Source of the DNA: Limnochordaceae bacterium
GTDB taxonomy: Bacteria; Bacillota; Limnochordia; Limnochordales; Geochordaceae
DNA length: 64,000 nucleotides
Reading direction: 5' to 3'
NCBI GenBank assembly: GCA_014896295.1
Contig: JADBKR010000006.1
Coordinates: 186,001-250,000, forward strand
Below, piece after piece: positions 11,797-29,832 of this stretch (position 1 is the stretch's first letter; each line of letters opens with the position of its first letter). A program made the position numbers and the translations under genes. The notes below the pieces were generated by a model. That model saw only the letters and a program-made list of their open reading frames with translations. It was not told where the DNA came from and made no database searches.

Positions 11797-12285
11797 ATGC
11801 GAGCGAAGGGATTCACCGGTGGGCGGAGCGCATTCGTCATGGCAGCGGCGGTGGCGATCGCCGTGGCGGCAGGGCTGGCCTTGCCCGCTTGCGCGGCGAG
11901 CCAGGGGATGGCGTTGATGACGATCCGCGCCCGGACGGGTATTCCCGGGGGCATCGAGTTGCGCTGGGCCCCGAGCGGGGGCAGCGAGTGGTGGGGCGCC
12001 GCCGTCGCCTTCGAGCGCAGTGCGCACGAGCTCGAGGCGCTTTGGGCCGGGCACCTGTGGGCCCTGGGATCGGACAACCTGAGCCAGCTCGGCGTCCAGG
12101 CCGGGTACAACCTGCCCAAGGAGGAGCCGCAGTGGACGAGCGGGCCGTGGGTGGGCTTCTATGCCGGGCAGCAGTGGAGGCTCGTGCCCGTGGCCCTGCA
12201 GTTCGGGGCGTCGTTGCGGGTGCCGGTCGACGCGCCGCAGCACGTCTGGTGGGAGACGTCGGCAGGCATCGGCCTGTCGTGGTAG
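11797..12285 (+). CDS. Secreted beta-rich hypothetical protein with outer-membrane-like C-terminus
   Basis: A 162-residue protein I do not recognise. It has a clear signal peptide (hydrophobic run about residues 14-30 ending in ACAA). The mature part alternates polar and hydrophobic or aromatic residues and is rich in Trp, Gly and Ser (WWGAAVAFE, LGVQAGYN, WVGFYAGQQW, VALQFGASLRV). It ends in SAGIGLSW; an amphipathic last strand with a terminal aromatic is the classic BamA-recognition signature of outer-membrane barrels. The ATG at 11797 has GGAGGAGG (11783-11790) 6 bases upstream. It may be a small barrel or a secreted beta-sandwich. Confidence 0.6.
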   Translation: MRAKGFTGGRSAFVMAAAVAIAVAAGLALPACAASQGMALMTIRARTGIPGGIELRWAPSGGSEWWGAAVAFERSAHELEALWAGHLWALGSDNLSQLGVQAGYNLPKEEPQWTSGPWVGFYAGQQWRLVPVALQFGASLRVPVDAPQHVWWETSAGIGLSW

Positions 12286-12307
12286 CGGGCAAGGTGCACC
12301 ATCGCGC

Positions 12308-12329
12308 GGGTGAAAGCCCGCATTTACCC
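12308..12329. promoter_or_regulatory. Palindromic operator-like site upstream of satD
   Basis: GGGTGAA (12308-12314) and TTTACCC (12323-12329) form an inverted repeat with an 8-base spacer and one mismatch. It lies about 20 bases before the SatD start codon. A closely similar palindrome precedes the next gene, and the two 41-base surroundings align at about two thirds of positions. This is most simply a binding site for the HTH part of SatD (inference). Confidence 0.55.
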
Positions 12330-12348
12330 ACGAGAAGGGTGAAGCGGC

Positions 12349-13083
12349 GTGGCCGGGGGACGAGCCGGGGAGGAGCGGGCGACGGGCGGGAGCGTGTCAC
12401 CCGGATCGGCGGATGAGCCGGGCAAGCCCCGGTGGATCGTCATCACGGCGGACGTCATCGGCTCACGCGCGGTCGAGCCGAAGGGCGCGCTGATGGGGGC
12501 CCTCGCCGAGAGCCTGGAGGCGTTCAATCGCGCCTGGGCCGGGCTCATCGCGGTACCCTTCTCGGGCGCGGCGGGCGACGAGGTGCAGGGCGTGCTCGTG
12601 CCCGGCGTCGAGGCGTTCGCCATGGTGCGCCGGCTCCGCTGGGCGGCCCGCCAGGCGGCGGTGCGCCCGGCGCTCAGGCTGCGCGTGGGCATCGGATGGG
12701 GTACCATCGACACGCCGATGCAGGCGGCCAGCTCGTGGGAGATGGATGGGCCGGCCTTCCACCGGGCCAGGCAAGCCCTGGCCCGGGCGGGGGAGGTGCG
12801 GGGCGAGACGACGCGCTTTTCGGGCCCGGATCCGGAGCACGAGGCGTGGGTCAACGTGACGCTCTCCCTGGTGGACGCCATCGTGCAGCGCTGGACGCAG
12901 GCGCAGTGGGAGGCCGTCGACGCCTACGAGCGCCGGGGCACCTACGCCGCGGCCGCCTCGGAGGTCGGGGTGGCCCTGCAAAACGTCCAGAAGCGCTGCG
13001 CCGCCGCCCGCTGGCCCGTGATCCGGGAGGCGGAGCGGGTGCTGGGGCGTTCCCTGGAGAGGGCTGCACCTGTAGAGCGGTGA
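12349..13083 (+). CDS. SatD family protein (putative HTH regulator)
   Basis: A 244-residue SatD-family protein. The family core begins at about residue 28 (WIVITADVIGSRAV), a conserved ITADhxGSR motif, and includes FSGAAGDEVQG and LRVGIGWG. The C-terminal 60 residues (WEAVDAYERRGTYAAAASEVG, with ALQNVQKR) look like a helix-turn-helix. The first 27 residues are low-complexity. The GTG at 12349 has GAAGGG 9 bases upstream. SatD proteins commonly sit next to a DUF3307 membrane protein, as here. Biochemical function is unsettled; a regulatory role is inferred from the HTH and from the repeated palindromes. Confidence 0.75.
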   Translation: MAGGRAGEERATGGSVSPGSADEPGKPRWIVITADVIGSRAVEPKGALMGALAESLEAFNRAWAGLIAVPFSGAAGDEVQGVLVPGVEAFAMVRRLRWAARQAAVRPALRLRVGIGWGTIDTPMQAASSWEMDGPAFHRARQALARAGEVRGETTRFSGPDPEHEAWVNVTLSLVDAIVQRWTQAQWEAVDAYERRGTYAAAASEVGVALQNVQKRCAAARWPVIREAERVLGRSLERAAPVER

Positions 13084-13100
13084 AACGCCGTACTTCACCG
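13078..13100. promoter_or_regulatory. Palindromic operator-like site between satD and the DUF3307 gene
   Basis: CGGTGAA (13078-13084) and TTCACCG (13094-13100) are perfect 7-base arms around a 9-base spacer. The site overlaps the satD stop codon and is followed directly by the ribosome site of the next gene. It matches the palindrome at 12308-12329 in sequence and in position relative to the start. Confidence 0.6.
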
Positions 13101-13108
13101 GTAGGAGG

Positions 13109-13969
13109 GTGACGCCGCTGTCGCTGGAGGGCCTGTGGGGCTCGACGGTGCCGCCCGGCGCGGTGGGATCCACGCTGGTCTGGATCTTCCTTGCCGCCCA
13201 CGTGCTGGCGGATTTCCTGTTCCAGACGGACGGCGTCTTTCAGGGCCGGCTCGACGGCCAGGCTCGCGCCTACCTCGTCCACGGCCTGACGCACCTCGTG
13301 CTCTCGTGGGCGCTCTCGGTGGCGGCGTGGTCGCCGGCGGTCCTGCTGGCGGGCGTGGTCGTCGCCGCGGTGCACGTGGCGGTCGACGTGGCCAAGGACG
13401 GGCTGCTGCGGGTGAGGGCTCGCCTCGACCGCGGAGCGCCGGCGGGCGGCGCCGCCGGGGCCTGGGCGTTCGTGGCCGACCAGCTGGTGCACGTGTGGGT
13501 GATCGTGTTCGTCGTGGCGCTGATTCCTCCCGGTTTCTTGCGGCCCTGGACCGGGGCGGATCTGCTCCTTCGCTTCGTGGCAGGAGCCTCGGCAGCCCAG
13601 GTGCTGGCCCACGAGGAAGCCTGGCGGCTGGCGGCCGTTTATCTGGCCGTGGTGCTGGGAGGGGCGGTGCTGGTGCGGCTCGTGCTCCAGGCGGCTCGGA
13701 CGGTGCCGGCCGGCACGGGGTTCACCGCCACGGGGGAGCGGCAGGTACCGCGCACGGGCACCTACGTGGGGATGGTGGAGCGGGCGCTCATCCTCTCGTT
13801 CCTGCTCCTCGGGTCGCACGCGGCCGTCGGCTTCGTCATCGCCGCCAAGTCCATCGCGCGCTTTCGGGAGCTCGAGGACAGGGCATTCGCCGAGTACTAC
13901 CTGGTGGGCACGCTGCTCAGCGTGCTGGTGGCCCTGGGTGGCTACCTCGTTCTCCGGCCCGCCGGTTGA
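13109..13969 (+). CDS. DUF3307 domain-containing membrane protein
   Basis: A protein of about 286 residues with seven or eight transmembrane helices. The N-terminal AAHVLADFLFQTD and HGLTHLVLS match the DUF3307 domain, which carries conserved His/Asp in the membrane. A later segment DQLVHVWVI repeats the His theme. Function is unknown; the pairing with SatD is recurrent. The start is doubtful: the GTG at 13109 touches its own ribosome site (AGGAGG, 13103-13108), whereas a CTG at 13118 is 9 bases from it and aligns exactly with the satD start in the repeated leader. The 3' end overlaps the cyclase gene by 32 bases. Confidence 0.72.
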   Translation: MTPLSLEGLWGSTVPPGAVGSTLVWIFLAAHVLADFLFQTDGVFQGRLDGQARAYLVHGLTHLVLSWALSVAAWSPAVLLAGVVVAAVHVAVDVAKDGLLRVRARLDRGAPAGGAAGAWAFVADQLVHVWVIVFVVALIPPGFLRPWTGADLLLRFVAGASAAQVLAHEEAWRLAAVYLAVVLGGAVLVRLVLQAARTVPAGTGFTATGERQVPRTGTYVGMVERALILSFLLLGSHAAVGFVIAAKSIARFRELEDRAFAEYYLVGTLLSVLVALGGYLVLRPAG

Positions 13970-15842
13970 CGGCCGCGGGCGCCTCGCGCGCACGGCGGCG
14001 CTCGCCGCTGCCCTGGCCGTGCTTGCGGCAGGCGGCCAGCTCCTGGGCCTGTGGGAGCCCCTCGAGCTCGTGGCCTACGACCGGGTGGTGGGTGTGCGCT
14101 TCGCCGCCGGGCCTCCCAGCCGAGCGGCCTCCCGTATCGCGGTGATCGCCGTCGACGAGCGTTCCCTGGAGCGGCTGGGAGCCTGGCCCTGGCCCGCCTC
14201 GGTGCACGCCCGGCTTTGGCAGGCGCTGGCCCGAAGCCGCCCGGCCGCTGTCGGCTTCGACGTGATGCTGAAGGAGCGTCCCCGGGATCCCGCGGACGTG
14301 CGGGCCCTGATCGATGCGGCCCGCAGGCTCGACGGGCTGGTGATGCCGGGCGGGGCGGAGGCGCCCTTCCCCGAGCTGGCCGGGGCGGTACGGCACCTGG
14401 CGTCGATCCGGTACCCCGTCGACCCCGACGGGAGGGTGCGCCGGCTCGTCTCCGAGCCCGGGGAGCCTCCTCCGATGGCGGCCGTGCTCGCGGCCCTGGC
14501 CAACGAGGCGAGCGGTGCTACGACTTCGGCCGGGCCACCGTCCCCTCGGGCCGCACCGGCTCCGGCGGCGGGAGGGAGCCGGGTCTGGTGGATCGACTGG
14601 AGGCGCCCTCCTGTCGTGCGATGGCCGTTGTCGGTGACCGCGCTTTTCCCGACCTACTCCCTGGCCGACGTGCTGGACGGCACCGTGGATCCGTCCTGGA
14701 TCGAGGGCCGGGTGGTACTGGTGGGGGTGACCGCACCGGGGGTCGCGGGCGCCGACCGTCACCTCACCTCCCTGGCGCGCCTGGGGCCCGTGCCGGGCGT
14801 GCTCGTGCACGCCGGTGCCGTTCGGGCGTTGCTCGATCCGGGGGCAGTGCGGCGGGCCGGGGGGTGGAGTGCGACCATCTCCGCCGTCCTGGTCGGCCTG
14901 GCCTGGGCGGCGGCCGGATCCGCGAGCGGGCGCCGGGCCGGGCCGGCCCGAGCAGGCGGGCGACTGCTGGTGCCCCTCGCTTTGCTCGGGCTCTATGAGA
15001 TGGCCGCCGTGACCCTCTTCGTCTGGGCCGGCTGGTGGCTCCCCATGGCCGCGCCGGCCATGGGGCTGCTCGGCACGCAGATCGCCGCAGGAGCCCAGGC
15101 GGTGGTGGAAGAGCGCCGCCGGCGCCGGCACGTCGAGATGGCGTTCGGCCGGTACGTCGCCCGGGAGGTACTCGAGGAACTGATCCGCTCCCCCGACCTT
15201 CCAGCCGTGGGCGGCGCTCGCCGCAAGGTGGCCGTGCTCATGGCCGATCTCTGCTCGTTCACCCCGTTTGCCGAGCGCCACGCCCCCGAGCAGGTGGTCG
15301 AGGCGCTCAACGCTTACCTGGAGGCGATGGCCCGGCCGGTGCTCGAAGCCGGCGGTATGCTCGACAAGTACCTGGGCGACGGCATCCTGGCCGTCTTCGG
15401 CGCGCCGGTGGGGAGCCCCGGTGCCGCCAGGCGGGCGCTCCTGGCATCCATGGCCATCGTGGAGCGGGTGCAGGCGCTCAACCGGGCGCGCGCTTCGAGC
15501 GGGCGCTGCGCGCTCGACGTGCGGGTGGCGATCCACGCGGGAGAGGTCATCGTCGGCAACGTGGGCATTCCCGAGCGGCTCGACTACACGGCCATCGGGG
15601 ATGCGGTCAACCTGGCGAGCCGCCTGCAGGATCTGGCGGGGCCGGGGGAGGTCGTGGCGTCCGTCCCCGCCATGGAAGCGGCGAGGACGGAGACGGGCGT
15701 GCCGCCACCCGCGCCTCGTGGATGGCAACGGTTTGGCCCCGAGACGGTGACGCTTCGCGGGCGTCGCGAGCCGGTGGCGGTGGTACGGTGGCGCAAGACC
15801 GGACTCGCCACCGGAGATGGTCCGGAGCCCCTCGCTGTGTGA
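13938..15842 (+). CDS. CHASE2-domain class III adenylate/guanylate cyclase
   Basis: A 634-residue membrane cyclase. Residues about 15-35 form a first helix, about 40-290 an extracytoplasmic CHASE2 sensor (AYDRVVGVR, VIAVDERSLERLG, ALARSRPAAVGFDVML), then helices near 310-380 and a class III cyclase domain (about 425-600). Catalytic features are MADLCSF (metal Asp), KYLGDGILAVFG (second metal Asp and purine-site Lys), DVRVAIHAGEVIVGNVG and DYTAIGDAVNLASRL. The substrate-specifying Lys and Asp/Thr pattern fits cAMP. The GTG start overlaps the DUF3307 end and has no strong ribosome site, suggesting coupling. A CRP-type palindrome overlaps its stop codon. Confidence 0.9.
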   Translation: MATSFSGPPVDGRGRLARTAALAAALAVLAAGGQLLGLWEPLELVAYDRVVGVRFAAGPPSRAASRIAVIAVDERSLERLGAWPWPASVHARLWQALARSRPAAVGFDVMLKERPRDPADVRALIDAARRLDGLVMPGGAEAPFPELAGAVRHLASIRYPVDPDGRVRRLVSEPGEPPPMAAVLAALANEASGATTSAGPPSPRAAPAPAAGGSRVWWIDWRRPPVVRWPLSVTALFPTYSLADVLDGTVDPSWIEGRVVLVGVTAPGVAGADRHLTSLARLGPVPGVLVHAGAVRALLDPGAVRRAGGWSATISAVLVGLAWAAAGSASGRRAGPARAGGRLLVPLALLGLYEMAAVTLFVWAGWWLPMAAPAMGLLGTQIAAGAQAVVEERRRRRHVEMAFGRYVAREVLEELIRSPDLPAVGGARRKVAVLMADLCSFTPFAERHAPEQVVEALNAYLEAMARPVLEAGGMLDKYLGDGILAVFGAPVGSPGAARRALLASMAIVERVQALNRARASSGRCALDVRVAIHAGEVIVGNVGIPERLDYTAIGDAVNLASRLQDLAGPGEVVASVPAMEAARTETGVPPPAPRGWQRFGPETVTLRGRREPVAVVRWRKTGLATGDGPEPLAV

Positions 15843-27652: not shown

Positions 27653-28942
27653 ATGATGGACTCTCGTCCCGGTCGCCCCGTCGCGCCCGACCTGCGGTCG
27701 CTGCTGTTTGGCGCGGCCGAGGCTTCCCTCACCATGGCCAGCGAGACCCTGGCCGCGGTGTACCTGCCGCTGCTCGCCATCGACCTCGGGGCCACCCCGC
27801 TGCAGGTGAGCCTGGTGGTCGGGCTCCCGCTGCTCACGGCCAACGCCCTCCAATTGGTCTTCGCTCCGCTCGGGGAACACCCCGCCTCGCGCAAGCGGGT
27901 CTGGCTGTGGGGCAGCAGCCTCATGCGGGCCCTTTGGATTCCCCTCGTCCTGCTGCCCATCCTCCCTATCCCGCAGGAGGCAGCGGTCGAGCTCCTGGTG
28001 GTGCTGACCGCCCTGCGGGGGATGGCCTCGGCCGTGGCCGCCCCGGCGTGGACCGGCATCATGGCGGATCTGACCGACCCGAGCTGGCGCGGCCGCTACT
28101 TCGGCGCCCGCAACCTGGGCATCAACCTGGCGTCGTTCCTGGCCTCGCTCGCCGGTGGCCTGATCGTCGACGGGGCGCCGGGGACGGTGGGGTACGCGGG
28201 CGCGTTCGGCCTGGCGCTCGTCCTCGGGGTGATGGCCCACCTCTCCATCCTGCCCGTGCGGGTCCCGGTTCGCCCGGACGCCGGCTCGGCCGCCGCGGCT
28301 TTCGCCTGGCGGGGCGTGGTGGAGCGAGGCCTGCGCCCTTCTCGCTGGCCGGACAGCTTTCGCCGGTACACGCTCTTTTTCTGGGTATGGACGCTCGCCA
28401 CGTTTGTGCCCGGCTCGCTGTACCCGATCTACTTCACCGACCATCTCGAGGGCTCGCGGTCTCTCTGGGGGATGGCCAACGCCGCGACTTACATCGGGCT
28501 CATCGTCGTGCAGCGGTGGTGGGGCAGGCTATCCGACAGCCGCGGCCATCTCCCCGTGCTCGTGAGTTCGGGGGTGGCCACCTCCGTGCTGGCGGCGTTG
28601 TGGCCGGCCCTCCCGCACCCGCAGTGGCTCGTTCCGCTCAACTTCCTGGCGGGCATCGCCTGGTCCGGATACAACCTGGCTGCGTTCAACCTGTTGCTGG
28701 AGTGGACGCCCGACGAAGGGCGGCCGACCTTCGTCTCCGTCTTCAACGCGGGGGTGGGGGTGGCGGCGGCCGCCGGGCCCGTCCTGGGCAGCTGGTGCGC
28801 CGGGGCGCTGGGGATCCCGGTCGTCATGGTGGGAGCGGCGCTGCTTCGGGTCGTGGCCGCGCTTGCCCTCCGGGGCCGCGGCCCTCACCTGCGTACTCTT
28901 CCCATCTCCCGGTTGCGGGCGAGCGCGGGCCGGCCCTGGTGA
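27653..28942 (+). CDS. Major facilitator superfamily transporter
   Basis: A 429-residue MFS protein with about twelve transmembrane helices in two halves. Typical features are the cytoplasmic loop between helices 2 and 3 (PLGEHPASRKRV), GIMADLTDPSWRGRYFGARNLG in the first half and RWWGRLSDSRGH between helices 8 and 9. The closest general resemblance is to Firmicutes MFS proteins of unknown substrate. Tandem ATG codons at 27653 and 27656 are possible starts with only a weak ribosome site. It is divergent from the Xaa-Pro peptidase gene, with 76 bases between. Confidence 0.8.
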   Translation: MMDSRPGRPVAPDLRSLLFGAAEASLTMASETLAAVYLPLLAIDLGATPLQVSLVVGLPLLTANALQLVFAPLGEHPASRKRVWLWGSSLMRALWIPLVLLPILPIPQEAAVELLVVLTALRGMASAVAAPAWTGIMADLTDPSWRGRYFGARNLGINLASFLASLAGGLIVDGAPGTVGYAGAFGLALVLGVMAHLSILPVRVPVRPDAGSAAAAFAWRGVVERGLRPSRWPDSFRRYTLFFWVWTLATFVPGSLYPIYFTDHLEGSRSLWGMANAATYIGLIVVQRWWGRLSDSRGHLPVLVSSGVATSVLAALWPALPHPQWLVPLNFLAGIAWSGYNLAAFNLLLEWTPDEGRPTFVSVFNAGVGVAAAAGPVLGSWCAGALGIPVVMVGAALLRVVAALALRGRGPHLRTLPISRLRASAGRPW

Positions 28943-28953
28943 ACGACCGGCGT

Positions 28954-29832
28954 TCAACGCCTGGAGCTGTCCGTGGCCTGCTCGTCGAGGCGGTCTGGAG
29001 CTGGCCCCCCGGGAGCTTCGCCAGACGCCGGTGGCGGGTCCGGAGCGGTATCGGGCGCCACTCGGTAGCCGAAGCCCCGTACGGTTTCGATGATGACCGG
29101 CCGCTCGGGGTGGGCCTCGATCTTGCTCCGCAGCAAGTAGACGTACTTCTTCACGTCTTCGGCCGTGGCGTCGCTCCGCTCGGGCCACGCCCGCTGCACG
29201 ATCTCCTCGGTCGAGTAGACGCGCCCGGGCTCCTGCACGAGCAGGGAGAGCACCTCGTACTCCTTGCGGGACAGATGGAGCCGCCGCCCGCGCACCCAGA
29301 CCTCCTTGCGCCGGTCGTCGACCACGAGGGAGCCGACCTGCCACCGGCGCTCCTCCGTGGCGGCCGCCGGGGTCGCCTCCTGGAGCGCGGCGGGCGCCCC
29401 CGTCCCCGTCGCCGTCCCGCTGGCGACGGCCGTGCTCCCGCCTGCGGCCGCACCGACCGGCTGCGCGGCGCCCTGGTGGCGGCGGATGACCGCCTCGATG
29501 CGGGCGGCGAGCTCCGGCAGGTCGAACGGCTTGGTGACGTAGTCGTCCGCCCCACCCGTGAGCCCGCGCACCTTGTCGGTCGTCTGGTTGTGCACGGTCA
29601 CCATGATGATGGGCACGTGGCTCATCGACCGGAGCTCACTCAGCACCGTCCAGCCGTCCATCTCCGGCATCCGCACGTCGAGGAGGACCAGGTCGGGTTC
29701 CACTTCCAGAAAGCGCTGCAAGGTCATCCGGCCGTCCTCGGCCCGCACCACCTGGTAACCCCTGGCCGTCAGGTACTTCTCCAACAGGCGCGCCGAACTC
29801 TCGTCGTCCTCGGCCAGCAAGATGCGCGTCAT
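28954..29832 (-). CDS. OmpR/PhoB family response regulator
   Basis: A 292-residue two-component regulator. The receiver domain (1-120) has ILLAEDDESSARLL, the phosphoacceptor in LVLLDVRMPEMDGW, MVTVHNQ and the conserved Lys in VTKPFDLPEL. A Gly/Ala/Thr-rich linker of about 45 residues separates it from a winged-helix DNA-binding domain (about 170-265) ending RGFGYRV. A Pro/Ala-rich tail of about 25 residues follows. The ATG at 29832 has GGAGGTGTG about 9 bases upstream and overlaps a possible stop of the histidine kinase gene (ATGA). It presumably answers to that kinase. Confidence 0.93.
   Translation of the reverse strand: MTRILLAEDDESSARLLEKYLTARGYQVVRAEDGRMTLQRFLEVEPDLVLLDVRMPEMDGWTVLSELRSMSHVPIIMVTVHNQTTDKVRGLTGGADDYVTKPFDLPELAARIEAVIRRHQGAAQPVGAAAGGSTAVASGTATGTGAPAALQEATPAAATEERRWQVGSLVVDDRRKEVWVRGRRLHLSRKEYEVLSLLVQEPGRVYSTEEIVQRAWPERSDATAEDVKKYVYLLRSKIEAHPERPVIIETVRGFGYRVAPDTAPDPPPASGEAPGGPAPDRLDEQATDSSRR

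Follow-up and report, generated by a model that had tools for sequence, protein, structure and literature searches.

The SatD family (Pfam PF16264) takes its name from satD in the sat operon of Streptococcus mutans, and DUF3307 (PF11750) is an uncharacterised, probable membrane protein. A 2025 paper lists SatCDE together with Ffh and YlxM in one S. mutans cluster (PMC12077213). A literature search found no operator, DNA-binding or regulator role for SatD, in line with the initial annotation of the present locus, which knew of no described operator for this family. No papers were found on SatD together with DUF3307; those on the SatD family or DUF3307, judged by title, apparently make passing mention of them.

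The locus described here lies in a stretch of 64,000 nucleotides from a Limnochordaceae bacterium (the window). Its SatD resembles the S. mutans protein in being a family member by sequence; in contrast to the sat cluster, satD stands with DUF3307 under putative operator arrays and without ffh. The DUF3307 gene matches its Pfam family, is the second gene of the unit and has an array of its own. The predicted N-terminal domain of SatD recalls the palm of class III nucleotide cyclases, GGDEF diguanylate cyclases and Cas10 in its fold and in the places of two Asp residues, but it is fused to a DNA-binding helix-turn-helix (HTH), and the likeness is one of modelled fold. Autoregulating one-component repressors with tandem dyad operators are similar in that paired inverted repeats lie across the promoter of the regulator itself. 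The SatD arrays differ from these in that four half-sites stand in a rigid 8-11-8 frame, the repeat of 28 or 29 bp is constant across clades as the spelling changes, and a second array precedes the next gene in many genomes. What is new is a regulator with its operator, a pairing whose general kind is known; its sensor domain is unusual, its operator geometry is conserved phylum-wide, and SatD is the presumed binder. We consider it probable that the arrays are SatD's own operators, and that SatD dimers bound to the paired dyads autoregulate (repress) the operon.

Genes and arrays in the window

satD (12349-13083, + strand) encodes a SatD family protein of 244 aa (PF16264, E 1.1e-17, 64.8 bits against a cut-off of 29) and is followed by the DUF3307 gene (13109-13969, + strand; PF11750, E 6.1e-15, 55.8 bits against a cut-off of 23). 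The start codon of the latter is uncertain: GTG at 13109 is too near AGGAGG, and CTG at 13118 would fit a satD-like spacing.

The initial annotation had noted a palindrome in front of each gene, GGGTGAA-agcccgca-TTTACCC at 12308-12329 and CGGTGAA-acgccgtac-TTCACCG at 13078-13100, and both are found at exactly these coordinates. Their surroundings, said to agree at about 27 of 41 positions, reach a best ungapped identity of 28/41, a value attained by none of 200 shuffles. The shared motif proposed for them, GGTGAA-N9-TTYACC, has to be redrawn: the sites are real, but the motif was mis-delimited and represents the inner half-site pair that joins two dyads. Outward of each palindrome there is GCACC-N8 before and N8-GGTGA after, the latter GGTGA belonging to the extended ribosome site. 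The complete element is a 47-bp array of four half-sites, TCACC-N8-GGTGA-N11-TCACC-N8-GGTGA, composed of two dyads (consensus TTCACCC-N6-GGGTGAA) with a repeat of 29 bp, and it is read with exact spacing at the same region in distant members of the class.

Array 1 (12296-12342), before satD, consists of GCACC (12296-12300), GGTGA (12309-12313), TACCC (12325-12329) and GGTGA (12338-12342). It has homologues before satD in many genomes and is itself degenerate, with 3 mismatches to the 47-bp pattern and a third half-site that is off register by one base, TTACC standing one base earlier. Array 2 (13066-13112), before the DUF3307 gene, has 1 mismatch and consists of GCACC (13066-13070), GGTGA (13079-13083), TCACC (13095-13099) and GGTGA (13108-13112). 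The satD stop codon lies inside the second of these half-sites, and the ribosome-binding sequence AGGAGGG of DUF3307 (13103-13109, + strand), read from the sequence, merges into the last. In the fixed array frame the two arrays are identical at 29 of 47 positions.

A chance palindrome was considered and rejected. Lone GGTGAAN9TTYACC is weak in the window, where 50 matches with up to 3 mismatches compare with 36 +/- 8 expected from shuffles (the second site, 13078-13100, has 0 mismatches and the first, 12308-12329, has 2). The 47-bp array is not weak, although what lends it weight is its conservation in other genomes, the window alone being insufficient. Elsewhere in the window, GGTGAACGACCGGCGTTCAAC at 28938-28958 has one mismatch to the palindrome, and at that place the scan gave no 47-bp array within 3 mismatches.

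The gene directly before satD (11797-12282) has no Pfam match; the C-terminal end of its product resembles a frame upstream of satD in a related genome (G065, locus L017). Its end is 10 bp away from array 1, so that satD may also be read from upstream. On the other side, a gene encoding a CHASE2 and class III adenylate/guanylate cyclase protein (13938-15842) overlaps the 3' end of DUF3307, and via this overlap the operon may continue into a true cyclase gene. The CHASE2-cyclase neighbourhood is not conserved at the other loci inspected, among which no third gene conserved beside the satD-DUF3307 pair was seen.

Distribution of the array in the phylum

A blind scan of 398 genomes of the phylum for the 47-bp pattern with at most 2 mismatches, in which no protein was used, gave matches in 36 genomes, and the reversed-pattern control gave 0. 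SatD is present in 69 of the 398 genomes, namely in 30 of the 36 array genomes versus 39 of the 362 others (Fisher p 3e-20 with kinship ignored; related genomes are not independent, and such p-values are guides only). In 29 of the 30 genomes with both array and SatD, the array stands at satD and/or the DUF3307 gene, in most cases immediately 5' of the start. The proposal of an operator-like site before both genes is thereby borne out, with conservation at SatD homologues in many genera. When the best 47-mer is taken from the roughly 250 bp that precede each satD or DUF3307 domain, mismatch counts are bimodal, with 0-5 in array loci versus a shuffled bulk of 8-11 (centre 9-10) and no shuffle at 3 or fewer. 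A genome-contig search using a single protein had given one relative only, and a first, loose-gap pattern was dropped as it matched RNase P RNA-like GGTGAGGTAAGAGCTCACC, which we take to be RNase P RNA, in many genomes.

Several matches mark damaged copies of the locus. In G118, which has no intact satD, the array is followed by the remnant MDKITVLTADVVDSRRNLQ-stop; in G317 it is followed by a fragment in which SatD and DUF3307 are fused, and in G017 by a decayed satD start. The array of G007 probably precedes a remnant of a DUF3307 start. G174, G323 and a second site in G317 look like chance matches. G011 carries a full array alone, with no recognisable satD remnant, a point against reading the arrays as SatD operators.

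Arrays can outlive their genes, complete or near-complete copies standing before decayed satD or DUF3307 starts (L097, L058, L059, L111 and, at 2070-2116, L056). Three dyads in 29-bp register, giving six half-sites, occur at L099, L100, L117 and L118, and at L100 the array lies just past the DUF3307 gene. Orphan arrays with no recognised satD or DUF3307 exist in the TCACC spelling (L057, 3268-3314) and in a TTAACC spelling (L196 at 1501, L197, L201, L202 and L209), and some of them may be remnants or further targets. A wider regulon of single dyads in the window's own genome was also considered and set aside as uninformative (203 matches per strand at 3 mismatches versus 94 for the reversed control).

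Half-site spelling and SatD clades

In a maximum-likelihood tree of 95 SatDs the array occurs at 41 of the 48 members of one clade (support 98/94) versus 2 of the 47 elsewhere, and both outside calls have chance-level scores. The TCACC arrays called at L003 (4 mismatches) and L146 (5 mismatches) were rejected as chance-level; these loci instead have TTGAC-like and TCAAC-like dyads, respectively. Within the clade, no array in register was found at L013, L162 and L176. Members of the array clade share the HTH segment GTYxxAxxxLGIAxQNVxKRCxAAxW; an example from outside reads LGISxAAVSKRLxxAGW. Family f109 has three genomes whose half-sites are altered together to ACACC/GGTGT or GCACC/GGTGC, with 20 of 20 self-symmetric, which is what a single protein reading every half-site would lead one to expect.

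Outside the clade, 80 regions were scanned without regard to spelling for four-fold symmetric tandem dyads (threshold 22/24, repeats of 20-45). Such dyads were found in 24 regions, 15 with a repeat of 28 and 9 with a repeat of 29; all other repeat lengths from 20 to 45 gave 2 in total, and block shuffles gave about 0. At the threshold used, approximately half of the non-clade SatD loci have no array. The spellings in the other clades include TTAACC (in operons with DUF3307 first), TTGAC, TCAAGG, ATGCAT, GTTCGC, TATAGA and TATAAC. A blind scan with TTAACC recovered the DUF3307-satD operon from seven genomes of the class in which the genes have this order, and from G152 and G313 as well; it also met a DUF3307 start at the end of a contig in G053, plus a few copies without explanation. 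The expectation that the palindrome would be conserved near SatD homologues therefore holds widely for the layout, and for the half-site spelling within one SatD clade, to which that spelling is specific.

These patterns bear on the identity of the binder. The arrays might be operators of another regulator encoded elsewhere, with SatD as just one of its targets; SatD is the presumed binder, and the solitary array of G011 would suit such an arrangement. Yet the array follows the SatD clade rather than the genome: genomes of family f35 contain two SatDs each and have the array only at the clade member. The spelling varies by SatD clade with the repeat length held constant, and the window's own genome has no further array with 2 or fewer mismatches. 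We regard a separate regulator as quite unlikely. As for the second SatD clade in the f35 genomes (L169-L179), its members stand alone, with no adjoining DUF3307, no array and the HTH segment TQAAISQRLKHARW.

Predicted structure of SatD

The AlphaFold2 model of the window SatD (pLDDT 92.4) consists of a beta-alpha-beta-beta-alpha-beta palm followed by a C-terminal helical HTH, a three-helix unit. The palm, of nucleotide-cyclase/GGDEF-like fold, is placed at residues 28-158 (12430-12822, + strand) on the basis of the model, Foldseek, VIA-align and invariant columns. It matches guanylyl and adenylyl cyclases, GGDEF domains and Cas10/Cmr2 (best Foldseek E 3.4e-5; VIA-align Z 9.3-10.5 over approximately 120-170 residues). 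Among the invariant SatD residues, D35 closes strand 1 and G76-D77 belongs to the GD(E) of the beta-hairpin. SatD was compared with the catalytic residues of the superfamily at two Asp positions, by topology, and we take the places of D35 and D77 to be the topological positions of the two metal-binding Asp residues of the cyclase/GGDEF superfamily.

The HTH at residues ~184-219 (12898-13005, + strand; recognition segment ...VGVALQNVQKRCAAARW) was delimited from the model helices and family matches. HTH and sigma-70 region 4 families are matched by members of the SatD alignment (Sigma70_r4_2 in 15/50), and the SatD profile matches solved HTH proteins with E 0.006-0.1. Family profiles and model together uphold the C-terminal HTH that the initial annotation had suspected, and SatD is predicted to combine a nucleotide-cyclase/GGDEF-like palm with a helix-turn-helix.

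Promoter position and the level of control

The sigma-H-like consensus RNAGGAWWW-N11-13-RNNGAAT served as the promoter pattern. It is found before 14 of 27 satD arrays (arrays with up to 2 mismatches) versus 5.3% in shuffles. Its -10 box mostly ends 0-3 bp from the satD array and so abuts it, which places the beginning of the array at the transcription start. No enrichment is seen at DUF3307 arrays (2/34), and no clear promoter accompanies the internal array in front of DUF3307. No sigma-H-like promoter was found in the window, whose satD array (judged by its close copy L016) does not figure among the arrays preceded by a promoter match with at most 3 mismatches, and no sigma-70 promoter was found near satD there; the statement about promoters thus rests on the relatives. 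The connection to sigma-H suggests that expression occurs as stationary phase or sporulation sets in.

The overlap of half-sites and ribosome sites raises the question of control at the RNA level. GGTGA and TCACC could form alternative leader hairpins that expose or hide the ribosome site, as a riboswitch or translational operator with one copy per gene. Both window sites do form hairpins in which UUYACC is paired with GGGUGA of the ribosome site, and most TCACC-clade arrays have a last half-site that overlaps the ribosome site; the folds in the window hide the ribosome site because GGTGA resembles an extended ribosome site. Covariation does not bear out such a switch. In the inner pair, both half-sites are changed in 9 cases versus 37 one-sided changes, in the outer pair the figures are 6/33 and in the dyads 3/37 and 2/53, and pairable combinations do no better than unpairable ones (7/38, 4/40). 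Promoter position also stands against it, since the abutting sigma-H-like -10 box leaves the first half-site at or before the transcription start. Several arrays of other clades lie upstream of TATAAT or TAGAAT -10 boxes, and an Rfam search of the window sites returned no family above its gathering threshold (best E 2.6). An RNA switch was rejected as highly improbable on the grounds of covariation, promoter position and the other-clade arrays. The sites are a DNA operator rather than an RNA element, because several other-clade arrays lie upstream of -10 boxes and half-site changes are mostly uncompensated.

Promoter position further bears on the sign of regulation. SatD could bind the arrays as an activator of its own operon, for instance when the palm holds a nucleotide, and in the DUF3307-satD gene order the position upstream of the -10 box would fit activators and repressors alike. 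In the TCACC clade the array runs from the -10 box over the start region, which is where a repressor would sit; activation seems to us unlikely.

A model for SatD action

From these data we infer SatD as the binder, dimers on dyads, repression over activation, and control through a palm ligand. SatD would be a one-component regulator in which a palm of cyclase/GGDEF fold is joined to a C-terminal HTH. One dimer would occupy each dyad and, with dyad centres 29 bp apart, neighbouring dimers may touch across the 28/29 bp. In the relatives, the first array would extend from the -10 box of the sigma-H-like satD promoter over the transcription start and leader; because it covers both, SatD bound there would be expected to act as a repressor of the operon that encodes it. 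The second array lies before DUF3307, some 0.65-0.87 kb further downstream, and may act as a road-block or looping partner. A nucleotide ligand or product of the palm could be the input to the switch.

Going further, SatD may be the founding member of a group of nucleotide-sensing or nucleotide-making transcription factors, in which the palm reads a nucleotide, paired dimers on 28/29-bp tandem operators set the level of the DUF3307 membrane protein, and spelling and HTH co-evolve clade by clade across the phylum; this larger picture is offered tentatively, as one that may well not hold in full.

Two protein families of unknown function, SatD and DUF3307, gain a testable mechanism comprising a regulator, its DNA target and an operon. 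The fixed repeat with varying spelling supplies natural matched pairs of protein and operator for reading the specificity code of the HTH, and the palm domain raises the question of which nucleotide controls the switch. Finally, the locus offers a route into the role of SatD and SatE in the better-studied sat operon of S. mutans.
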